Shown: piece after piece, positions 2,274 through 44,619 of the stretch | How the letters are laid out: each line of letters begins with the position of its first letter | Position numbering within the stretch: the stretch's first letter is position 1 | Assembly: GCF_002943425.1 (NCBI RefSeq) | Contig: NZ_PTRA01000006.1 | Location: 124,001 to 188,000 of the forward strand | From: Siphonobacter curvatus | Lineage (GTDB): Bacteria > Bacteroidota > Bacteroidia > Cytophagales > Spirosomataceae | Reading direction: 5' to 3' | Length of the DNA stretch: 64,000 nt | The notes under the pieces: model-generated | What the model saw: the letters and a program-made list of their open reading frames with translations, nothing else | Told to the model about the DNA's origin: nothing | Databases searched by the model: none | Translations under genes and position numbers: made by a program

Positions 2274-2897
2274 TTACTTACGGAAAGTAATGGCGATCCC
2301 CGTCAGCAACAGGATTCCACCCAGCATCATGCAAGCAGAGAGTTGTTCGCCCAGCAGCAGCCACGCTAGGAGGGCGGTCAAAACGGCCTGGCTGAGTAAA
2401 CTAATGGACACCTGCTGAGCGGGAATATGCGTCAAGGCATAACTCACCGAAAACCAGCCCAGGAGTTGACAAACCAATGCCTGCGTCAACAACGATTCCC
2501 AAACCAGAGTGGAAAAGCCGTTTAGCTTCTCTCCCCCTAAAAGGCACAAAAACAGCAGCAAGATACTCCCAACGGTGGTCATGCAGGCCATGAAATTGAG
2601 GATGTTAACATTTCGCAGTACTTTTTTGCTGAGCATGAGGTAGGCGGCGTAACAAATCCCGGAGAGCAGGCCTAATCCAAATCCTCGATCAAAGGCCAGG
2701 TCCGCAAAAAGTTGAAACCCCATAAAAAGGACCAGCCCTGCCAGGGCGACCACCACACCCAGCCAGAAAAACCGATTAGGCTTTTGCGGCAGAAACAAAA
2801 AAGAAGTCAGCCCTACCCAAATCGGAGACAGATTCGTAAGCAAGCTGGCCTGGGTTGCTGAAGAATACTGAATGGAGAGATTCCAGGAGGCAATATC
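2274..2897 (-). pseudogene. EamA/DMT transporter, C-terminal fragment split by the island
   Basis: A start codon (TTG) can be read at 2843, giving only 189 residues against roughly 290 for the family. Reading upstream in frame gives more family-like sequence (DIASWNLSIQYSSATQASLL), which matches the conserved FALW-SL-YTSVA-ATLL segment of EamA repeats. Past about 2898 the DNA turns very AT-rich and the reading becomes non-family sequence ending at a stop at 2931. The missing N-terminus, with the first membrane helix, is found at about 11174-11263 on the same strand. The gene is therefore interrupted by the intervening island. Whether the remaining six or so membrane helices are still expressed is unknown. 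Confidence 0.8.
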
Positions 2898-2992
2898 TAA
2901 AAGAATCTTAATATATATATAATCTATTGATTATTAATGCGTTAATATAAATAATATTCATAACATGTGAAACAATGCAGAAACATAATTCG

Positions 2993-3041
2993 TTAACCTT
3001 TAATGATCTAAAAAACAAATTTCTGGATCATTAAAGGTTAA
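2993..3041 (-). repeat. 16-bp perfect inverted repeat at the left end of the island
   Basis: TTAACCTTTAATGATC at 2993-3008 is repeated as its exact reverse complement at 3026-3041, with a 17-base spacer. It lies 18 bases past the stop of the last small island gene and about 95 bases from the left island junction. It may end the operon transcript, although no T-run follows the stem, or it may be a recombination or protein-binding site at the island end. Confidence 0.75.
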
Positions 3042-3058
3042 GCTAATGAAAGCCCATG

Positions 3059-3283
3059 TTAGTGTTTCTCACGATTGACATGCATCATGTTGTTAAACAT
3101 AGTTGCTGTCAATCGTGCCATTTCATCTACAGTATTCAAATTACCTCTCTGATTAGGGGATAATCTGGCATTTTGTATACCTCTAATTGTTCTAACATTA
3201 GAATTTGAAATAGAGATTTCATCTCTTCTGAATCCTTCCTGTAATAGGAACATATTTCGTTCAAATTCCTTTCTACTATTCAT
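3059..3283 (-). CDS. Small hypothetical protein B, paralogue of the preceding gene
   Basis: This 74-residue charged protein is not recognised. It starts MNSRKEFER and aligns along most of its length with the upstream 78-residue protein with one gap. Shared features are NSRKEFE, an LL pair, R-I-G--NA, SPN-R-NL-T-DE--RL and a final N-rich tail; by hand count about 40% of aligned residues are identical. Its ATG lies inside the last codons of the upstream gene (8-base overlap), so it is translationally coupled. No signal peptide or membrane helix is seen. It is probably all-helical and cytoplasmic. As the last gene of the protease-STAND operon it is likely an accessory factor, adaptor or effector of that system (inference). 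Confidence 0.65.
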   Translation of the reverse strand: MNSRKEFERNMFLLQEGFRRDEISISNSNVRTIRGIQNARLSPNQRGNLNTVDEMARLTATMFNNMMHVNREKH

Positions 3284-3512
3284 TATTATTAAATTTGTCT
3301 TTATCGAAGGTGTTTAAAGTATTTGCTAATAGCCTAGTAGTTTCATCTATAGTTGACAAATTAATTCTCCTATTTGGCGAAAACTTAGCATTAGATAAAC
3401 CGTTGATTAGCCTAGGAATTAAAGGCATTTTTAACTTTTTAGTTCTTGCACTTTCAGCAAGTAAGTTTAAATGTTTTTCGAATTCTTTTCTACTATTGGG
3501 AATAATCATCAT
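3276..3512 (-). CDS. Small hypothetical protein A, paralogue of the following gene
   Basis: This 78-residue basic protein belongs to no family I recognise. The block NSRKEFEKHLNLL near the N-terminus and the block SPNRRINLSTIDETTRLLAN near the C-terminus recur in the next gene, so the two arose by tandem duplication and then diverged. The ATG overlaps the stop of the 1937-residue STAND gene (ATGA), and its own end overlaps the next start. This arrangement makes it a real gene despite its size. It may be a subunit or regulator of the NTPase, an antitoxin-like factor, or a small effector. No catalytic motif is visible. Confidence 0.65.
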   Translation of the reverse strand: MMIIPNSRKEFEKHLNLLAESARTKKLKMPLIPRLINGLSNAKFSPNRRINLSTIDETTRLLANTLNTFDKDKFNNNE

Positions 3513-6500
3513 TTTAATACTTTTCGGTCAAATACATTAATATACATGATATTGTAATTTCTAACGACTTTCCAAATCAACTTATAATCTGACTTAATTG
3601 AATCAAGTAAATTGAAAGGTATAGTCGTACAAAAAGCAGTTTGCTGGGCTACTCCTTTATACTTAGTGTCCCAATTTCGTCCTCGTCTCCAATACATTGA
3701 AGATATACTTTTTGAAAATTCAGGCAAAATTTCATCAATATAAAGACTTAATTCAGAAGGTACAAACTCACTTCCCGTGATAGAACCCACATGCATACTT
3801 TTAACAAACAATGGAATGATATCTTTATAATCTTCAAGAAAATGGGGATAAGAATTAGCTGGGAATGTTGGTTCTGAATAATAAATATCAATTTCTTTAT
3901 ATTTTTCAATGGGAATTAGGTAAGATGTAAGTTCTATACTTAAATGTGATTCACTATATGTGTCCACAAATCTACTATAGAATAAATTTAAGGGGAATTC
4001 TTTATTAATAGTAATTTTGTCAAAATCAATATATCTTTTATCAAAAATATTATTTAATGCAAGTATTAAGTCATCTTCTATTAGAGTGATATTGACATGA
4101 AGTTTATTTTCTGGAAATGTTGGTTGATAAAATCTTAAGATATTAGCTACATTTTCTTTATTTTCAAATAATACACAAGGGCTGATGGCAATATTGATGC
4201 AATATCTCAGAATTGTATCAAAATCAGATACTAAATCTATTTCATAGTCATCGTTGAAGCTTCTATTAATATAACCATCAATCTTCTTAGTCTCCTTAAT
4301 AGGTAGAGGGGATAATTTATCAATTAAATCTAAAAGTGTTATTGCAAATTTTTTATTTAAAATCTCAAGATCATTTAGTTCAACAAGGATGTCCATTACA
4401 GAGTCTAAGTAATCCTGATCAAAAAAAACGTCTCCGTTATTTGTATTATTTAATGCAAATAATTGCTCATATTTATTGATTAGTATATCTAAATTCGTAT
4501 CACTATTGTTTCTTAATTCATAGAGTGAATCAAGAATTGTGTTGTTAATCATAAAATGTTTAACCTTAAATAATTCTGTTTCATTATTGTCTAAAATAAT
4601 TTTAAATGATTCTGAAAAGCCAGGAGGATTCAATTTAGAAATTTGATGAATAACGGATGCAGATAATTCTTTAGATATACTATATCCATCATTGATTATT
4701 TCACTTACTAAAGCAGAAATAATTGTTTCCGACATAGTAGTTCCTAACCATGTTAATATCTCAATCGTTCTATTTTTGACAATTAATGATGGATGATTTA
4801 AAAACCATATTAGAAATTCAAGTAAAAGCTTGTCTTCCTGAGATGATAAATGAGTACCTTTGTTATTTATTAACCAGTCATATTTTTTGAACATATGATC
4901 TGGCGTTCGAACCATTAAATCTATATGTTCAAGTACAGATGACAACACTAACTGCTTTTCAGATTCATCATCACTTTTCTTTAGAAATTCTATTATTCGA
5001 TTTGCAATTATCCATTCTTCAGAATAAGGTTCATTAATAATTAAATCTTTAATATCTTTAATTAATTCAGAAGGGCTATCATAGCTTTCAGTTAAAAGAT
5101 CCCTAATTTCATTTATTTTATGAGAGTAATTGTTTGACCATATGCCATATTTTTGATCTTGTATTCTCTGCAAAGCCTCTATTATAATTATTCTAGCACC
5201 ATTTTTATTCTCAACATCAAGTTTGCCCTGAGCGGATTTTTTAGCATCAATTAATGAATTTAATGGGTCATCGTCTTCTAAAAGAGACTCTTTATCTAAT
5301 GTGCTTTCTAATTTATGCGTAGGACTCATCCCAACGGATTCTAAATAACTTTTTAATCTATCAATGTTTGATAAGCTTAGTTCGTTTATAAGGCATTGGA
5401 GGTATTCAGTTCGGAGTTCGTCATTCACTTCCGTGATTACAAACTTAGATAGTCGTTTAAATAATACATCCAAATTATCCACTACTTCATTTTCGGAATA
5501 ATTTAAAATATTAGCTTGAACTTTAGCATATCCGCTTAAATATCGATCATCACCTAGTATGAAGAGTTCACTTAATCCCCAAGCAACCATAGAGCCCTTG
5601 CAATTAATATTCAGAAGCATATTCAATATGCCACTCTGTTCTTCAATTGCCTTTGCACCTAATACGTAACCAGTACCCTTATATGGCATATCTACTTTAC
5701 CTGATTCCGCATTAGTCAGAATTGTTTCATAGTCAGGGAATAATAAATATTTAAAATAATTAATTGAATCATTGATTAATCCAACTTGTGCTAAATCTCC
5801 TACAAACTCGGCTTGTTGATCCCTAACATATCTTTGGAATGTCATTTCTCCAGAAGCGTGATGTAAATGAGCAGCGAATTTTTGTAAGTATGTAAAATCT
5901 CCTCCCTTTGGAATAATGTTTGAAACTGCAGTATTGATTATTCCTAACTGCGCTTCTTTATACCAAGAGGGACCCATAGAATAATTAATCATTTCTTTAA
6001 AGATAGAATTAGCTTTAATGTTGTTATTTATCTGAGCGTAAAGTTCTACTAGTCTTAATAAGTATTCATTTCTCTCCCATCTATTCTCTGTTGTATCTAA
6101 AATGTGTTGTTCTAATGTTTTAATTATTTTAAAAGCTGAATGTTCATGCTCAGGATTTTTAATAAGGTCTTTAGCTATAATGAAAAGGCTTTCAATGTAT
6201 CCCTCAGTATATAAGCCAAGCTGATAATATTTCTCACCAGTGATTTTATCAATAAATATCTTAACTTGCTCAGGCAAATGCTCTACAAGAAGGTTTACTA
6301 AATTGTCATATATGTATGGATATATTGTTTCAGGTATAGCATAGCTACGCTCCCAATACATTCTAATTTTTAGATCAGGAATTAAATTTTCGATTAACTG
6401 TATTATATTTGATTCAAGTGATTTAATTACGGATATATTATTATCAATTTTATAACGTTTTATTTTACCTACAATATAAAATAAATAATCAAAAGTAGAT

Positions 6501-9322
6501 TTAATATTGATTTCCCAATCGTGAAAGTCATACTTAAAATTTGGTAATGGTGGGTATGAGTTAGTGGCATCAAAAAATCCTAAACATTCTTTATGTAGTC
6601 TGTACTTGTGTATCTGCTGATAATTAAGATCTACTCCATTTTCTTCCCTTATCTCAAATAAGATTTCTGTTGAATAAAATTCTTTATAAATCTTTTCTAT
6701 AATATCAACTCGCTTAGATTTCTTTGTAAGCACATGTAAGCAAATGAAATAATAGTCAGAATGTATACCATATTTATCAATTGAATATTCTAAATCTGTA
6801 ATCCAATCCAATAAAAAACTATCGTCTACCTTATTAGGACTTTTAGCCTGAAAATTTAAAGCCTCATAAATGCATAGAGCAATATAACCACTGAATCTAG
6901 AGTCACCTTTAAGATAATCTTCTACCGTTTTGACGAATGGAGGTAAATTAAGTCTCCATATAAGATAGCCGTGATTGTAAGATCCAACATCATCTTTAAA
7001 TTTTTCGACCTCTTCTTCATGATTTTCATCGTATTTTATCATTTTAATGATGTTCCCTAAAATAGTATAAAACTCTGTATTTGCAGCTTCAAAATCATGG
7101 CTAGCAGATAGAGTAACAGCTTTAAACTTTAATCTAATAAAACGATTTAATGATTCATCATCTAATTTGCTTTCTAATATGTTCTTACAAGTTTGATTAA
7201 TTACATTTAATAAAATTTCAGCTTCATCGTAGGCTTCATATTCATAAAATTTGTATAATAAGCTCAAAGCGTCACCATCACTTACGATTAATGTATCATT
7301 ACGAATAATATATCTGATTGCTTCTGCTGGTTTATTTAATGCTAATAAAGCATTAACAAGAAAATATGCATTTTCATAAAATAGAGTATTATATCTGAAA
7401 TTTACTCGTTTAGAAAGTAGTAATAATGAAATAACTTTATGCGATAAGCCCAATCCAGCTGCAATACTTAAACAAGTTTTTATATCAGCTAAGACAACAT
7501 CAGGGTTTACGCTATTTAATGTACATTCATCTACCCACTTTTGATTACATTCATCTATCGCCATCTTTCTAAGTTTCTCATCACCATTTGCCAAATGATA
7601 AACCCGTTCAGAAATACCAAAACTTGTTTGAGGGTTTTTTATAATAAAATTAGAAATATTTTCTTGAATTATAATATTAATACTTTTACTATTTTTATTT
7701 ACATAATCAGAAAAAGAAGTATGATAGATACTTAGAGAGTCATTGTCTCTTAGTAAATGTTGTATTCTTTTAAAACTTACAATAAAACTATGTTTAGTCG
7801 ATTCTGGTAAAAGTTCTTGTAAAGTATCTATTTCAACAGGAATTCTTAATCGTGCTAAAGTAGATACCAACCAAATTTCATCAGTTTGTTCACCAAGCTG
7901 TTCCCATATCTTTATATAATAATTTTCAATATCGCCACCGATTGCTGGTATTGAATCAATCCAACTATCTATCGAATCAGATTCAGAGCTTTCTAATAAA
8001 TTTTTAGTGAGATACCGCATGTATAGCGGATGTCCCTCGGATTTGTGAGCAAGCTGACTTATTTGGGTAGTTTTAAGTTGCTTATCTTTTAATTGTTGAG
8101 ATAAGAATTTTTCAGCGCTTTGAATTGATAAAGGTGTTACTTTTATAATATTTGAACTCTTTATAGATCCTTTTAACGTTAGAGGTAATATGTCAATTGA
8201 AGTGCATGACAAGATTATTTTAAAGTTTGCAGGTAAATTTCCTGGTAGGACAGATAGGTAATCCGCTATTCTAAGTTTGTTTACATCATCTAAACCATCA
8301 ATTATCAGAAATCCTATTTCCCCTTTCTGATTATAATAACTTGATAGTTGATGTATGATTTGATGTATATTTGCTAATCTTTCATTTAAAGAAATTTCTT
8401 TTAAAGGTTTTGGTGGTAAGTTATTAAATAATGCATAGTAGCAAGCTTCTTCTATCCACTTAATGAAAAACTCCTGAGTTGCTCTTATCTGTGTTGGATA
8501 TTCTTCGTTGTCTGGTACTTTAACAAAAAAACGACCTGCAATTACATGTTTGCTATCCTCTAGTTCTAATTGTGCTGCAATAGTGGTTTTCCCTGAACCT
8601 GGATTTCCAGTGATTAAAAAATAACTAGAAGAAATATTTGCTCTAATTACATTATTTATTTCTGATATAACTTCTAGGTTTGGAGTGCTATCGGATATGT
8701 CTTTTTCTATTGAGTTTGGTATAGATTGATCTTTATTAATTAAGGTTTGAATGTCATGTTTTATTAGATACTCACTAATGCTTTTTATGCTTGTAGCACC
8801 CAGAGTACCTACATTATCATACCCTATAACACCTACAACAAAACCATCAATAATTAATGCTGAGCCAGATAGTCCATCAAATTGTTCAAGATTAGAGTAT
8901 TGACTGCATTCCAAATCCACATCCCATTTTGTTCCATGATTTATTCTTGAAACTGTACCATTATATCTTCCGCCTGAATTTACTCTTATTACTGGAAAGC
9001 CATATGATTCCCAGTTCTCATTGTAACGTAATTCTGTATTTTTTAATGGAAGAAAGCTAATTTTATCTGTTATTTTAATATTAGTATAAAGAAGAGCTAC
9101 ATCTCGACTATCTATTTTTTCAATTAATTCTGCATTTATAATTGTACCGTCCTCAAAGCGTATGCAGATAGGATTTTCTTCAGAGACGGTATGTGCAGAT
9201 GTTAATAACACCTGTCTTTCATTACTAGAAAATACAAAAAAGGCAGTACCTGTTTTCTTTCCACATGTAATTCTTACAGTAGCACTTTCGATATTTTTTG
9301 GATCGAGTATTTTTGGAATCAT
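3509..9322 (-). CDS. Trypsin-like protease / STAND NTPase fusion, Avs-like
   Basis: A 1937-residue protein. Residues 1-195 form a trypsin-like domain with a full triad: TSAHT (His44), RDVALL (Asp74) and GLSGSAL (Ser152). Residues about 215-450 form a P-loop NTPase with Walker A GNPGSGKTT (Lys245), Walker B FLIIDGLDD (Asp345/Asp346), a sensor-like LSCTS near 371-375 and the STAND-type GHPL near 430. About 1450 C-terminal residues are helical and repeat-like, as expected for the sensor arm of STAND proteins. In this class, ligand binding by the arm drives ATP-dependent oligomerisation and effector activation. Start and stop overlap both neighbours by ATGA. The closest known design I recall is AVAST type I, which combines MBL, protease and STAND parts. 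The trigger and protease substrate are unknown. Confidence 0.85.
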   Translation of the reverse strand: MIPKILDPKNIESATVRITCGKKTGTAFFVFSSNERQVLLTSAHTVSEENPICIRFEDGTIINAELIEKIDSRDVALLYTNIKITDKISFLPLKNTELRYNENWESYGFPVIRVNSGGRYNGTVSRINHGTKWDVDLECSQYSNLEQFDGLSGSALIIDGFVVGVIGYDNVGTLGATSIKSISEYLIKHDIQTLINKDQSIPNSIEKDISDSTPNLEVISEINNVIRANISSSYFLITGNPGSGKTTIAAQLELEDSKHVIAGRFFVKVPDNEEYPTQIRATQEFFIKWIEEACYYALFNNLPPKPLKEISLNERLANIHQIIHQLSSYYNQKGEIGFLIIDGLDDVNKLRIADYLSVLPGNLPANFKIILSCTSIDILPLTLKGSIKSSNIIKVTPLSIQSAEKFLSQQLKDKQLKTTQISQLAHKSEGHPLYMRYLTKNLLESSESDSIDSWIDSIPAIGGDIENYYIKIWEQLGEQTDEIWLVSTLARLRIPVEIDTLQELLPESTKHSFIVSFKRIQHLLRDNDSLSIYHTSFSDYVNKNSKSINIIIQENISNFIIKNPQTSFGISERVYHLANGDEKLRKMAIDECNQKWVDECTLNSVNPDVVLADIKTCLSIAAGLGLSHKVISLLLLSKRVNFRYNTLFYENAYFLVNALLALNKPAEAIRYIIRNDTLIVSDGDALSLLYKFYEYEAYDEAEILLNVINQTCKNILESKLDDESLNRFIRLKFKAVTLSASHDFEAANTEFYTILGNIIKMIKYDENHEEEVEKFKDDVGSYNHGYLIWRLNLPPFVKTVEDYLKGDSRFSGYIALCIYEALNFQAKSPNKVDDSFLLDWITDLEYSIDKYGIHSDYYFICLHVLTKKSKRVDIIEKIYKEFYSTEILFEIREENGVDLNYQQIHKYRLHKECLGFFDATNSYPPLPNFKYDFHDWEINIKSTFDYLFYIVGKIKRYKIDNNISVIKSLESNIIQLIENLIPDLKIRMYWERSYAIPETIYPYIYDNLVNLLVEHLPEQVKIFIDKITGEKYYQLGLYTEGYIESLFIIAKDLIKNPEHEHSAFKIIKTLEQHILDTTENRWERNEYLLRLVELYAQINNNIKANSIFKEMINYSMGPSWYKEAQLGIINTAVSNIIPKGGDFTYLQKFAAHLHHASGEMTFQRYVRDQQAEFVGDLAQVGLINDSINYFKYLLFPDYETILTNAESGKVDMPYKGTGYVLGAKAIEEQSGILNMLLNINCKGSMVAWGLSELFILGDDRYLSGYAKVQANILNYSENEVVDNLDVLFKRLSKFVITEVNDELRTEYLQCLINELSLSNIDRLKSYLESVGMSPTHKLESTLDKESLLEDDDPLNSLIDAKKSAQGKLDVENKNGARIIIIEALQRIQDQKYGIWSNNYSHKINEIRDLLTESYDSPSELIKDIKDLIINEPYSEEWIIANRIIEFLKKSDDESEKQLVLSSVLEHIDLMVRTPDHMFKKYDWLINNKGTHLSSQEDKLLLEFLIWFLNHPSLIVKNRTIEILTWLGTTMSETIISALVSEIINDGYSISKELSASVIHQISKLNPPGFSESFKIILDNNETELFKVKHFMINNTILDSLYELRNNSDTNLDILINKYEQLFALNNTNNGDVFFDQDYLDSVMDILVELNDLEILNKKFAITLLDLIDKLSPLPIKETKKIDGYINRSFNDDYEIDLVSDFDTILRYCINIAISPCVLFENKENVANILRFYQPTFPENKLHVNITLIEDDLILALNNIFDKRYIDFDKITINKEFPLNLFYSRFVDTYSESHLSIELTSYLIPIEKYKEIDIYYSEPTFPANSYPHFLEDYKDIIPLFVKSMHVGSITGSEFVPSELSLYIDEILPEFSKSISSMYWRRGRNWDTKYKGVAQQTAFCTTIPFNLLDSIKSDYKLIWKVVRNYNIMYINVFDRKVLK

Positions 9323-10515
9323 AATGTTATAGTGTAAGGTTCCTGATTTAAATAATTAATAGAGTAATTCCAATTGTTTTTCCATTCTTCATTATCAAAG
9401 TATGTGGAATTTTCGGTGATGTAATTAAAATATAGTTCTCTACATGATTTTGATGGACGACTTATTATATGGGCAATCGTTTCTCTATGTGGGTGATTAT
9501 GGTTATCTCCATTTGTAGAGAAAATATATTTAGTTGAGTCAATTTTATCTAGTAAGTCTTTATTGATGTTATGAAAACTTCCATGATGAGATACTTTGAT
9601 AAGATCAAATTTTATTAATCCTTTTTCATCATATTCCTTAAGAGATTGTACTATTATATCAGGATGTGCATCGGCAAGAAATAACAGTTTTTTTTCTTGG
9701 ATTTCTAAAATAAAAGAAATTGAGCTTCCATTTGTTATAGTTGTGTCGTCGTCGAATGGTTTTAGTAATAATTCTTCTATGGACTCTTTAGTTGAAGAAA
9801 TATGGGGTGATTTTTTTTTGAGCATGTCTTTTTCCCAAGACATATGCATCTCAAAAGCATCATCATACAATTCAGATTTAATTTCTTCATATTTGGTACC
9901 GTATTTTTCTAATTCATTTTTCCAGAGAATTTTCAATTTTCCTAATTTTTCATTATTTGGTGACAATAGAATTATTTGAGTATTTTCATCTATACTTATT
10001 TCTTTTTTATAATCTATTGATACTGCATTTCTATCAAAATCAGTATTCCAGTTATAATCACCTTGTAAAATCAGTGCTCCTACTGTTGTACCTTGTATAG
10101 CACTAATTTCTTGCTGCCCATACATGTCTCCTTTCCTTACTGCATACCCCTTCTGAGTTATCTGATTAAGTATTTTTTCTTGGCTATTATCAATATATGT
10201 TTGCTCATTATGGTGTAGATGTCTAAATGTATTATGCCATATTTCCTTAATTTCAATAAAAGCCTCAGAGTTATTATCTTTTAAAAGCCGTATAGCTCCT
10301 TGAATATGATCTTTATCTATATGGGTTATAATCAATTTCTCTATTACTTCCCCTTTCTCAGCAATTCTTATCAAATCCTTTTTCAAATATTTCTTTATGG
10401 TATCTACATATCCGCAATCAATTATCAAATGTTTTTTACTATCATTTACCCCCCCGAAGCTTATTAAGAAGCAATCGCCATTCTTAGCTGGATATGTTTT
10501 TATATTAATGTTCAT
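9319..10515 (-). CDS. MBL-fold hydrolase, ComEC-like, of the STAND operon
   Basis: A 398-residue protein. The start GDCFLI, then LIIDCG, is the usual opening of the ComEC/Rec2-type metallo-beta-lactamase branch. The metal motif reads THIDKDH (His65, Asp67, Asp69, His70). The Asp at the second position is normal for this branch. LFLADAH and the later KVSHHGSFHN supply further ligands. It has no signal peptide or membrane segments, so unlike ComEC it is a soluble enzyme, probably a nuclease or phosphodiesterase. It is the first gene of the four-gene operon and overlaps the protease-STAND gene by 4 bases. It may be the effector activated by the STAND protein, or a partner in signal generation (inference). 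Confidence 0.8.
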   Translation of the reverse strand: MNINIKTYPAKNGDCFLISFGGVNDSKKHLIIDCGYVDTIKKYLKKDLIRIAEKGEVIEKLIITHIDKDHIQGAIRLLKDNNSEAFIEIKEIWHNTFRHLHHNEQTYIDNSQEKILNQITQKGYAVRKGDMYGQQEISAIQGTTVGALILQGDYNWNTDFDRNAVSIDYKKEISIDENTQIILLSPNNEKLGKLKILWKNELEKYGTKYEEIKSELYDDAFEMHMSWEKDMLKKKSPHISSTKESIEELLLKPFDDDTTITNGSSISFILEIQEKKLLFLADAHPDIIVQSLKEYDEKGLIKFDLIKVSHHGSFHNINKDLLDKIDSTKYIFSTNGDNHNHPHRETIAHIISRPSKSCRELYFNYITENSTYFDNEEWKNNWNYSINYLNQEPYTITL

Positions 10516-10525
10516 TTTATCTCAA

Positions 10526-10549
10526 GTTAAATAATTTCTTTTATTTAAC
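10526..10549. promoter_or_regulatory. 9-bp inverted repeat upstream of the island operon
   Basis: GTTAAATAA at 10526-10534 and TTATTTAAC at 10541-10549 are perfect reverse complements around a 6-base spacer. The site lies 10 bases before the ATG of the MBL gene, in the 62-base gap behind the HTH/small-protein pair. It could be an operator for the HTH protein or for an unseen regulator, or a weak hairpin in the mRNA leader. No strong TAnnTTTG box is evident here. Confidence 0.5.
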
Positions 10550-10577
10550 GACCGTGCTTAAAGGTAGTGAAATGTAC

Positions 10578-10841
10578 TCAACTCTTACGTGTACTATGGC
10601 TCGGTGCTGGGGATGATACAGCCTTAGTTTCCATTGTATTGATAGTGGCCGAACTTACCCTCCTATAAGCGACAGCCCCCTTCATAGGCATTTTACTAGA
10701 TCCATTCTTCTTTTCCAGTAGTTCTCTAATCCAGTCAAGCTCCTTTCTCATGGAGGTAATCATCTCCATGATTTGACCGAGTTCTGGAATATGTATCTCT
10801 AAGACGGATGATCTTTTCGATAAGATAATCGGAGAGATCAA
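10578..10841 (-). CDS. Small hypothetical protein with an N-terminal helix
   Basis: Up to 87 residues from a TTG start at 10841, preceded by an AAGGGTG ribosome-binding-like stretch; an ATG 24 codons further in is an alternative. The N-terminal half (IPELGQIMEMITSMRKELDW) looks like an amphipathic or coiled-coil helix, and the C-terminus is Ser/Thr/Lys-rich and probably disordered. I do not recognise a family. It begins 9 bases after the stop of the HTH gene and is likely translated with it. Base composition is close to that of the host and unlike the AT-rich genes that follow. Function unknown; the context suggests a mobile-element accessory protein. Confidence 0.5.
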   Translation of the reverse strand: MISPIILSKRSSVLEIHIPELGQIMEMITSMRKELDWIRELLEKKNGSSKMPMKGAVAYRRVSSATINTMETKAVSSPAPSHSTRKS

Positions 10842-10850
10842 GCACCCTTA

Positions 10851-11156
10851 TCAAACAGACTTAAATTCTTCCAGATATTTCTCTAAAGCCTTCCTAGTAA
10901 TGCGTACGGTCTTGGCATCTTCTACAGATTCAAGTTTTCCTTCCCGTCTTAACCGGTCTATCGCCTGGGGATTGGGCTTCGCGTTTGCAGAATGGAGTCT
11001 AAGGAATTCGGCTGCTTCTGTTTTGGTGAAAACTTCCTGACGGGTCGGTAGGGTTTGTTGAAATTTCTGAAGAGCCTGCTCGACGGCTTGCGTGATTAAG
11101 GCCTGATGGTGGGATGGCTGTAGAGTAACAAGCGTGATAACAGGTAATAGATGCAT
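10851..11156 (-). CDS. Excisionase-like helix-turn-helix protein (HTH_17 type)
   Basis: About 101 residues from the ATG at 11156; the frame is open further upstream, but that part reads through the broken transporter gene. An N-terminal helix (ALITQAVEQALQKFQQ) is followed by FTKTEAAEFLRL, then IDRLRREGKL and a VRITRKALEKYLEEF wing/helix. This follows the usual Bacteroidota HTH_17 plan of a poorly conserved N-terminal helix and a MerR/Xis-like DNA-binding domain. Such proteins act as excisionase-like or transcriptional factors on mobile elements. It sits about 18 bases inside the right island junction and may control island transfer or the operon downstream. No recombinase is present to pair with it. 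Confidence 0.6.
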   Translation of the reverse strand: MHLLPVITLVTLQPSHHQALITQAVEQALQKFQQTLPTRQEVFTKTEAAEFLRLHSANAKPNPQAIDRLRREGKLESVEDAKTVRITRKALEKYLEEFKSV

Positions 11157-11173
11157 AAGTAGAGAATAAACTT

Positions 11174-11263
11174 CACCCGAATTAGAATCGGATAGATACT
11201 GATACAGAGAATGCCCGCAAATAACCACAGGCGGGGAGAGCCGGAAGAAGACGTCATACGCAT
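11174..11263 (-). pseudogene. EamA/DMT transporter, N-terminal fragment
   Basis: From the ATG at 11263 the frame reads MRMTSSSGSPRLWLFAGILC, then ISIYPILIRV. This is a typical first membrane helix of an EamA-type transporter, as far as about 11174. The frame then runs on as unrelated sequence to a stop at 11096. The fragment begins 7 bases after the MFS stop codon, so MFS and EamA formed an operon before the island arrived. The rest of the protein is encoded at 2274-2897. The middle 45-50 residues expected from the family are missing. Confidence 0.7.
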
Positions 11264-12960: not shown

Positions 12961-13866
12961 ATGACTTCTCCATCTTCCATCACCCAACAGTTGCTTGACC
13001 GCCTCTGGGAACGGTACCAGCAACGCGTACCTTATGCCCGACGTTACGCAGCATTAGTTCTTGAAAAAGGAGGTCAGGTCGTCAATGATCACTGTGCGTT
13101 CCGGACGTTCAACACGCGTACGGGCGAACAAACACCCGGATTAGAAGCCATTGGTTTTATTCTGGAATGTTTGGGATACCAGAAAATAAGTCCGTACGCT
13201 TTTCCGACCAAACACCTGAATTCCTGGCATTACCAGCACCCCACGGAGGCTCACTTTCCCAAGTTTTTTGTCACGCAACTCGACGTAACCCAACTTTCCG
13301 GGCGGGCTCAGCAATTACTTTCGGAGGCCGTTGCTCATACGCCGGATTTGCTGGCGGGCACCCCGCGGGAATCATTACAGCGATTAAAAGATCAGCAGGA
13401 GCTTGAAGATGAATCGGCGGTAACGCTGGTATCAGCCCTGGAAAATTTCTTTACGCGACCCTGGCCGGCTCCACCTCGCGATACGGTTTTGGCTTTAAAC
13501 GAAGAATCGCAGTTTGCGGCCTGGACCCTGCTGCACGGGAATGCGGTCAATCACTTCACGGCTTACATTAACTTTCAGCAGGTTCCTGAATGGCCCGATC
13601 TGGAAACAACCATAGCGGGTTTACAAGCCGCGGGCATTCCGATGAAAAGTCAAATCGAAGGAGAGCGGGGCAGTAAATTACGCCAGTCGTCGACGCAGGC
13701 CGTCGACGAGGATTGTCCCGTAACCGAAGCCGATGGAAGTACAGGAACCCTCCGCTGGAGTTATGCCTACTACGAACTGGCCGAGCGGGGTCAGGAAAAT
13801 GGAGTCTGGTTTGAGGGTTTTCTGGGAGATCAGGCTACCAATCTTTTTGAAATGACGAAACGGTAA
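12961..13866 (+). CDS. DUF1338 family 2-oxoadipate dioxygenase/decarboxylase-like
   Basis: A 301-residue protein of the DUF1338 (YdcJ/HglS) family, a VOC-fold iron enzyme. The first metal His lies in NDHCAFRTF (His44), the second in GNAVNHFT (His198), and a C-terminal FEGFLGDQATNLFE supplies the Glu. The characterised member turns 2-oxoadipate into 2-hydroxyglutarate with O2 in lysine catabolism. The short type seen here is common in Bacteroidota, and its true substrate may be the same or a related 2-oxoacid. No signal peptide, so cytoplasmic. The neighbouring genes do not form an obvious lysine pathway. Confidence 0.8.
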   Translation: MTSPSSITQQLLDRLWERYQQRVPYARRYAALVLEKGGQVVNDHCAFRTFNTRTGEQTPGLEAIGFILECLGYQKISPYAFPTKHLNSWHYQHPTEAHFPKFFVTQLDVTQLSGRAQQLLSEAVAHTPDLLAGTPRESLQRLKDQQELEDESAVTLVSALENFFTRPWPAPPRDTVLALNEESQFAAWTLLHGNAVNHFTAYINFQQVPEWPDLETTIAGLQAAGIPMKSQIEGERGSKLRQSSTQAVDEDCPVTEADGSTGTLRWSYAYYELAERGQENGVWFEGFLGDQATNLFEMTKR

Positions 13867-14061: not shown

Positions 14062-14625
14062 ATGTTAAGTCTTATTCTGAAAGAAGATACCCGCACCTCC
14101 CATCAGCAACTTGAAAAACAGGTCGTTCAGCGGTTGAAAGCCATCACGAACAAAGCCGATTACGCTGATTTTTTGAAGCATTTCTACGCCTACTTTCACG
14201 CGGTTGAACAGGCCATCGCTCCCTATATTACGCCGCAGGTACTACCCGATTACGCACAACGTCGCCACGCCTCCTTTCTGAAGGCGGATCTGGAAACCCT
14301 GGGCAGTACGAGTGACGACTTACCCGCTGCTACGGCCCCGACCATCGCGACGACGGTAGAGGCCCTAGGAGCTTTGTACGTCATGGAAGGTTCTATCATG
14401 GGGGGTAGTATTATCGTGAAAATGCTGGAAAAAGTGGGCATTACGGAAGGAATTTCCTTTTTTTCGGGGTATGGACCCGCTACGGGAAGTATGTGGAAAA
14501 CCTTTACAGAAGTGCTCAACGCTCAGGGCCGTACCGAAGCGGATGAAGCCCAAGCCGTCGCTGCGGCAAACGAAACCTTTACGCGTTTCGGTGACGTATT
14601 TGTCGAAAATCGCGTAACCGAATAA
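14062..14625 (+). CDS. Biliverdin-producing heme oxygenase
   Basis: 187 residues from the ATG at 14062, the usual size; an upstream non-ATG extension is not family-like. His14 in TRTSHQQLE is the expected proximal heme ligand. GALYVMEGSIMGG matches the distal-helix motif YVLEGS-LGG of the BphO-type heme oxygenases. The enzyme would open heme to biliverdin, CO and iron in the cytoplasm. In this group it often supplies the bilin of a bacteriophytochrome, but no phytochrome gene lies in the window, so iron release is equally possible. Confidence 0.85.
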   Translation: MLSLILKEDTRTSHQQLEKQVVQRLKAITNKADYADFLKHFYAYFHAVEQAIAPYITPQVLPDYAQRRHASFLKADLETLGSTSDDLPAATAPTIATTVEALGALYVMEGSIMGGSIIVKMLEKVGITEGISFFSGYGPATGSMWKTFTEVLNAQGRTEADEAQAVAAANETFTRFGDVFVENRVTE

Positions 14626-43824: not shown

Positions 43825-44619
43825 ATGTCTCTTTTTATTACGTCTTTAAATTCGGGTAGTAACGGCAATTGTTACTACGTAGGCAACGGGCAGGATGCGG
43901 TTTTGATCGATGTAGGGATATCCTGTCGGCAAATCGAATCCCGGTTGCGGCGGTTGAGCTTGTCGGTACATACCATCAAGGCCATTTTTATCTCGCACGA
44001 GCATACCGACCACATCAGCGGGACCACCAATTTTGCCCGTAAATATCAGCTGCCCGTCTACCTGACACCGAAGACCTTGCGATCGGCCCGATTGCTGGGC
44101 GAGGGCTTAGCTATTCGTTTTTTATCCAGTACCGATCCCGTATGGGTGGGCGATCTATGCGTGAAAGCGTTCCCTAAATTTCACGATGCCGCGGATCCCC
44201 ATAGTTTCATGGTTTCGTACGAAGGCACGCGGGTTGGGGTTTTCACGGATTTGGGACAGACCTGTACGGGCCTCATTGAACATTTCAGTCAGTGCCACGC
44301 CGCCTTTCTGGAAGCCAATTACGATGAAGCCATGCTGGAACAGGGACGTTATCCGTATTTTCTCAAACAGCGTATTCGGGGCGGTCATGGGCATTTGTCC
44401 AACCAGCAGGCACTGGATTTGCTGCGTACCCACAAGCCTGCGTACATGAGCCACGTTATTCTTTCGCACTTATCGAAGGAAAATAACTGCCCCATTCGGG
44501 CCCGAGAACTGTTCCTGCCGCACATGGATACGACTGAATTGGTGGTGGCTTCTCGTTTGCAGGAAACGCCCATTTATCACATCAAAGCTCGAGAAGTGGA
44601 GCAGCCTGTATTTTCTTAA
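43825..44619 (+). CDS. MBL-fold hydrolase, YycJ/WalJ-like
   Basis: A 264-residue cytoplasmic metallo-beta-lactamase-fold protein. The start SLNSGSNGNCYYV and the metal motif SHEHTDHISG match the YycJ/WalJ group, with further ligands in KFHDAADP (His) and FTDLGQT (Asp), and GHLSNQQALDLL near the C-terminus. Family members act on nucleic acids or coordinate DNA replication with cell-wall control. The last 38 bases overlap the end of the convergent DinB-like gene. Confidence 0.88.
   Translation: MSLFITSLNSGSNGNCYYVGNGQDAVLIDVGISCRQIESRLRRLSLSVHTIKAIFISHEHTDHISGTTNFARKYQLPVYLTPKTLRSARLLGEGLAIRFLSSTDPVWVGDLCVKAFPKFHDAADPHSFMVSYEGTRVGVFTDLGQTCTGLIEHFSQCHAAFLEANYDEAMLEQGRYPYFLKQRIRGGHGHLSNQQALDLLRTHKPAYMSHVILSHLSKENNCPIRARELFLPHMDTTELVVASRLQETPIYHIKAREVEQPVFS

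Follow-up and report, generated by a model that had tools for sequence, protein, structure and literature searches.

Two Avs1c paralogues in a divergent AVAST type 1 operon of Siphonobacter curvatus

Introduction

A stretch of 64,000 nucleotides from Siphonobacter curvatus (contig NZ_PTRA01000006.1; hereafter the window) contains four tightly packed genes, which a preliminary description presented as a candidate new Avs-like immune system. Is this operon a new system or a catalogued one, and what could its two small genes contribute? Excerpts of PMC12931631 describe Avs1 to Avs4 as systems that recognise the large terminase, the portal or another phage protein and that kill via nuclease activity. 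We find that the operon belongs to a catalogued type of anti-virus defence, AVAST type 1, and that its departure from the catalogued plan is a second avs1c gene. The four open reading frames are present on the minus strand as described, with overlaps of 4, 4 and 8 bases (Table 1).

Table 1. Features of the operon and of the segment that carries it (positions in the window)
Feature	Position	Strand	Basis
avs1a: MBL-fold pro-nuclease (by homology), 398 aa	9319..10515	-	NCBIfam NF041809, PADLOC Avs1a
avs1b: trypsin-like protease, STAND NTPase and helical arm, 1937 aa	3509..9322	-	PADLOC Avs1b
avs1c first copy (c1), 78 aa	3276..3512	-	NCBIfam NF041811, PADLOC Avs1c, c1 clade
avs1c second copy (c2), 74 aa	3059..3283	-	NCBIfam NF041811, PADLOC Avs1c, c2 clade
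Inserted segment, 8276 bp, 30.4% GC; operon and two further small ORFs	2899..11174		Absent from congener G178
Small helix-turn-helix ORF in the insert	10851..11156	-	Pfam HTH_17 25.8 bits, cut-off 27
Inverted repeat directly downstream of c2, possible terminator	2993..3041		22-nt arms, 91% complementary, 5 nt apart

Results

Identity of the operon

All four genes match the Avs1a, Avs1b and Avs1c models of PADLOC and NCBIfam, in the gene order catalogued for AVAST type 1. Avs1a exceeds its NCBIfam cut-off (461.6 bits, cut-off 420; PADLOC 2e-100). The profile search that the preliminary description had proposed for the 1937-residue protein identifies it as Avs1b (PADLOC 1.4e-266 across residues 10–1925); it also contains a Pfam Trypsin_2 match above cut-off, and its score on NCBIfam NF041810 (897 bits) is below the naming cut-off of 1500. 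The two small proteins are under the NF041811 cut-off of 70 (c1: 68.6 bits, PADLOC 4.2e-10; c2: 63.5 bits, PADLOC 1e-08). We treated the NCBIfam cut-offs for Avs1b and Avs1c as a naming rule and did not count them as defining AVAST type 1. The locus of Erwinia piriflorinigrans CFBP 5888 (L072), one of 51 loci retrieved via the Avs1b alignment, scores 472, 2580 and 76.9 bits on the NCBIfam models of Avs1a, Avs1b and Avs1c. The Avs1b proteins of an Olivibacter locus (L028, 921 bits) and of a Priestia plasmid (1077 bits) are likewise below 1500, and the Avs1c copies of L028 score 86.1 (c1) and 81.4 bits (c2), above the cut-off, and 45.2 bits (c3), below it. On the basis of these scores, we assign the window operon to AVAST type 1, as a divergent member. 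Since both small proteins match the Avs1c models, c1 and c2 are paralogues. Full-length relatives are found in several phyla with their genes arranged in this order, so that the operon is not a chance set of open reading frames.

The proposal of a new Avs-like system is thus not borne out, as the operon corresponds to AVAST type 1 gene by gene, both in the model matches and in the comparison with Erwinia. The single chain of protease and NTPase, which had been read as a departure, is the normal layout of Avs1b; the high-scoring Erwinia protein has it as well (1943 aa as read). With regard to the two genes that had been called extra, one avs1c is a standard component and only the second is additional. 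Both short open reading frames exist, but instead of two separate unknowns they encode members of one family.

Avs1a and its putative cut positions

Our locus set comprises 57 loci: the window, one from a second genome of the same family (G130), four from plasmids and 51 from genome contigs, the last picked by the patterns SMGP[SD]WYK and [HMA]A[SGD]GEMTF, so that the conservation of these two stretches is by construction. Avs1a was aligned for 54 of them, as three loci lack avs1a because the contig ends.

The MBL motif THIDKDH begins at residue 64 of the window Avs1a, and by sequence search its only solved relatives are ComEC proteins. Other PADLOC models match the protein as well (LmuA, 8.6e-96; RTasMBL, 1e-49). 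In the excerpts of PMC12799240, the Erwinia Avs1a is a gated pro-nuclease and the system is triggered by a viral terminase. Infection with phage P1 gave a product that fits a cut next to I134; changing either I134 or I234 weakened defence, and changing both abolished it (PMC12799240, excerpts). We equated L072 with this Erwinia system because the strain name agrees and two isoleucines stand 100 residues apart, and the same spacing served to locate both sites on L072. At the first site, the alignment has Ile in 52 of the 54 proteins and Val in two; at the second, Ile in 37, Val in 11, Leu in three and other residues in three. The window Avs1a has Ile at both (I137 and I239) and may thus be cut after these residues. 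Whereas the MBL enzyme had been considered as a separate killer, it would by homology be a pro-nuclease that is activated by the protease (PMC12799240, excerpts).

A search of 222 genomes of the family with the Avs1a model gave matches in 79 at E <= 0.001. Only the window genome and G130 exceeded the cut-off, and no protein above it was found in five congeners. Within the window, a further weak match to the model (43858–44037, 5.1e-4) is part of a longer open frame that probably encodes an ordinary MBL-fold hydrolase.

Avs1b as a putative sensor and protease

The trypsin triad is intact, as had been noted: of 52 aligned Avs1b proteins, 96% keep each of His44, Asp74 and Ser152, and 98% keep the P-loop Lys245. 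Conservation of the arm in the same proteins is highest at about residues 950–1180, a region that includes the two stretches used as search patterns; five sequences of alignment A1, which were picked without the patterns, keep both stretches too. The fastest-changing segment is found at about 701–900. Few positions are conserved in the last 390 residues, partly because some relatives are shorter.

We modelled residues 195–1300 from an alignment of 41 sequences, the window protein and 40 of 46 others (mean pLDDT 86.5). A structure prediction of the arm had been suggested, and the two best fold matches of the modelled core among 350,542 PDB chains are Avs3 bound to the terminase of PhiV-1, with 8dgc as the best (E 1e-10 and 1.5e-10, TM-score 0.41 and 0.39, 11% identity). 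Sequence searches for solved relatives gave only HtrA-like and other trypsin-type proteases, both among nine weak matches in one search and among the 60 of 75 matches listed in another. The NB-ARC family had no match across the window's own genome (6.39 Mb).

Copy number and history of avs1c

Avs1b is followed by avs1c in all 56 loci that reach past avs1b; the remaining locus, L048, ends inside it. Two to three avs1c genes stand in tandem in 21 of 21 Bacteroidota loci (50 genes in total, including two fragments, one in third place in L029 and one in first place in L037). All 35 other loci, one of them from an unclassified MAG, have a single copy. The preliminary description had asked whether the two small genes always travel with the fusion; at least one avs1c does so in these 56 loci, and two or more do so only in Bacteroidota. 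We did not count the presence of exactly one avs1c as defining AVAST type 1. The window has two copies; no third copy was found in a profile search of window ORFs of at least 30 aa. When 395 genomes of the phylum were searched with the Avs1c model, at most 15 candidates were scored per genome and the window genome was the sole match, so that this search holds no data on copy number. The two fragments (L029 after position 14288; L037 at 13165–13305) illustrate that single copies can decay while others stay.

The avs1c tree was inferred from 83 of 85 sequences, without the two fragments, over 88 columns; many of its forks are unresolved and the window sequences sit on long branches. The c1 copies of the window's sub-clade form one group of nine sequences (support 99/96) and the c2 copies another group of nine (98/99). 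A third type, c3, forms a group of 17 (95/97) that is spread across Bacteroidota, and the first copies of other Bacteroidota do not group with c1. Of the nine loci in the sub-clade, three (the window, L032 and L034) are limited to c1 and c2, another five carry c3 in addition and L029 has a c3 fragment. Judging from the tree, c1 and c2 are separate old paralogues in the sub-clade. For every pair and gene where it was computable, that is where dS was not saturated, dN/dS was at most 0.26; pairs with the window give rough values, as dS is near saturation. By these ratios, c1 and c2 are under purifying selection where it is measurable.

Synonymous divergence varies along the operons of relatives. 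Between L028 and L030, pS is 0.37 for avs1a, 0.10 for avs1b, 0.08 for c1, 0.06 for c2 and 0.31 for c3, and among the avs1 operons of L028–L033, avs1a and single avs1c copies are far more or far less diverged than avs1b. Such unevenness between neighbouring genes suggests that avs1a and avs1c segments have been exchanged between operons.

Possible functions of Avs1c

The model of c1, made with 68 of the 85 sequences, consists of three helices (mean pLDDT 84.0). A fold search of the PDB gave 21 matches, the best at E 1.4. Compared with viral models, Avs1c had 72 matches, all with E > 0.5 and with TM-scores up to 0.64. Among the 50 of 72 matches listed, eight have a query TM-score of at least 0.5: three are named as terminase and one as uncharacterized, and for the other four no name was available.

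These fold matches raise the idea that Avs1c imitates the small terminase subunit of phages and thereby helps to capture the large subunit, an idea that sequence comparisons do not bear out. An hhalign comparison of the Avs1c profile with the T4-type family, the one family compared (nine small terminases), gave a probability of 0.15% and E 0.4. There is no terminase among the 25 of 35 PHROG families listed for 68 Avs1c proteins. Of two Avs1c proteins searched against phages with tblastn, one had no hit and the other seven with E of 4 or worse, none at a terminase. Given these comparisons, and with every viral fold match at E > 0.5, we consider such mimicry very unlikely.

The small proteins had also been considered as substrates of the protease. 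The sequences lend this no positive support, as a motif resembling the cut sites, [IV]|[SG][AGS], occurs in 9 of 83 Avs1c sequences; however, the motif is narrow and would miss the second Erwinia site and an I-S-I-S stretch in the window c2, so that Avs1c may still be a substrate. A mirror comparison of Avs1c with segments of Avs1b over 34 single-copy loci gave partial correlations that peak at 0.31–0.39 in residues 701–1000, which are among the fastest-changing segments of Avs1b, so that the correlation is confounded. The name Avs1c appears in no paper of the literature searched. Most likely, Avs1c is a small obligate partner of Avs1b with a structural or regulatory role. In Bacteroidota, this role might be divided among two to three specialised copies, c1 and c2 in the case of the window.

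Genomic setting

The window's genome has 68 matches to SusD_RagB, a family that among 14 control genomes is matched in Bacteroides ihuae only, and we take the genome to be that of a member of Bacteroidota. The operon is part of an AT-rich insert between flanks of 50–51% GC. The insert is missing from the congener G178, where about 150 bp separate the sequences that match the two flanks (94.5% and 93.4% identity). An EamA-type transporter ORF is cut by the insert; it comprises 189 aa in the window (2274–2843) and up to 334 aa in G178 (L090, 2458–3462). Besides the operon, the insert contains the helix-turn-helix ORF and an ORF of 87 aa; the ORFs of the other loci examined include no homologue of either. 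The inverted repeat behind c2 was not called by a terminator scan. Promoter-like sites (46 vs 50.1 expected) and terminator-like sites (2 vs 2.6 expected) show no excess.

We compared 113 ORFs of 130–1200 aa, located within 5 kb of 18 Bacteroidota loci, with PADLOC. These flanking ORFs gave matches to 120 families at E <= 1e-15; the 25 families listed include a cyclase, a NucC-type effector, type I restriction, DRT3, AbiE, AbiL, Gabija GajB, BrxH and DpdF. For 34 other window ORFs, which served as a control, only five PADLOC families were matched. Several families may be matched by a single ORF, and the control was drawn from the window's genome instead of from those of the relatives, so that this is a rough contrast, by which the avs1 flanks of the Bacteroidota relatives are rich in defence genes. 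The flanks in the window itself are no defence island and the insert stands alone. One of the 34 window ORFs (alignment A6), which is not among nine that were scanned singly, matches PADLOC PDC-S24 at 1.6e-199. At the window's edge, an ORF of 116 aa (13–363) matches the end part of Endonuclease_NS; the full gene probably begins before the window.

Discussion

We conclude, with a probability of about 0.85, that the four genes form a divergent AVAST type 1 operon of a Bacteroidota type, with two Avs1c paralogues, an Avs1a that is activated by proteolysis and Avs1c as a partner of Avs1b. The arm of Avs1b would bind a protein of the phage packaging machinery, with the large terminase as the likeliest candidate. 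The STAND NTPase would then oligomerise and bring the N-terminal trypsin-like domains together, with Avs1c acting as the small obligate partner. Next, the protease may cut Avs1a in its gating loops, behind the residues I137 and I239, which were assigned by alignment. The freed MBL nuclease would degrade DNA and, by analogy with the Erwinia system, the infected cell would die or stop growing. The fold match to Avs3, which is bound to a phage terminase in the matched structure, is the one result that bears on the trigger here. Judged by these relatives, the preliminary description appears right in its outline of an MBL, protease and STAND NTPase immune system with a sensing arm, in which oligomerisation precedes proteolysis.

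Could the four genes still be a system distinct from AVAST, with the small proteins as toxins, protease substrates or inhibitors? Such a reading could appeal to the Avs1b and Avs1c scores beneath the NCBIfam naming cut-offs and to the two small genes, where one is annotated in four plasmid loci. However, Avs1b matches its model over the full length, Avs1a is above its cut-off and both small proteins belong to the Avs1c family, whose c1 and c2 orthologues in L028 exceed the cut-off; in addition, a cut-like motif, which was narrowly defined, is not shared across Avs1c (9 of 83 sequences). We thus regard a separate system as highly improbable. It is very unlikely that the operon has decayed and no longer works: although it stands by itself and the insert around it has cut a transporter gene short, and avs1b is interrupted in some relatives (e.g. 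L041, L058 and L062), all four frames are open and overlapping here, the catalytic and cut-site residues are kept and dN/dS, a rough estimate, is well below 1.

The second avs1c might also be a redundant duplicate that contributes nothing of its own. Copies do come and go, as seen in the absence of c3 from the window, L032 and L034 and in the fragments of L029 and L037. Yet c1 and c2 are both retained in nine of nine sub-clade loci, in separate supported clades, and with low dN/dS where computable (rough for pairs with the window, where dS is near saturation), so redundancy seems unlikely to us. A more elaborate proposal, in which Bacteroidota Avs1 is a distinct subtype whose two to three Avs1c paralogues assemble into a hetero-oligomer as the partner of Avs1b, a co-receptor that faces the packaging motor and possibly mimics the small terminase subunit, the usual contact of the large one, is in our opinion very doubtful.

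If the main reading holds, the mechanism tested in Erwinia, in which a STAND sensor controls a nuclease that is activated by a protease, would extend to a Bacteroidota subtype. The multiplication of avs1c is the less expected part and is a lineage-wide variation in Bacteroidota: the gene is present in every locus that is long enough (56/56) and is divided into separately conserved copies there. The role of Avs1c thus becomes testable copy by copy. We make no claim that this multiplication is unpublished beyond the literature searched.

Comparison with known systems

To our knowledge, Avs3 has another effector and lacks Avs1a and Avs1c partners, and we know of no Avs1b or Avs1c in the protease-nuclease variants of Hachiman, Lamassu and DRT. 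Like the window Avs1b, Avs3 (8dgc) combines a STAND NTPase with a helical arm. According to excerpts of PMC12799240, the Hachiman, Lamassu and DRT variants have the same pairing of an MBL pro-nuclease with a trypsin-like protease, whereas their sensors differ from the window's. The AVAST type 1 system of Erwinia piriflorinigrans CFBP 5888 shares with the window the gene order, all three families, the fusion of protease and STAND NTPase and both isoleucines at the cut positions; it has one avs1c, whereas the window has two paralogues. In the pairs aligned, gammaproteobacterial Avs1b proteins are about 22–24% identical to that of the window, compared to 57–61% for those of Olivibacter (L028), Rufibacter (L029) and G130 (L027). 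These three loci, together with those of Sphingobacterium (L030) and Belliella (L033), have the same c1 and c2 as the window and, unlike the window, L032 and L034, carry the third copy c3 as well, as a fragment in L029.
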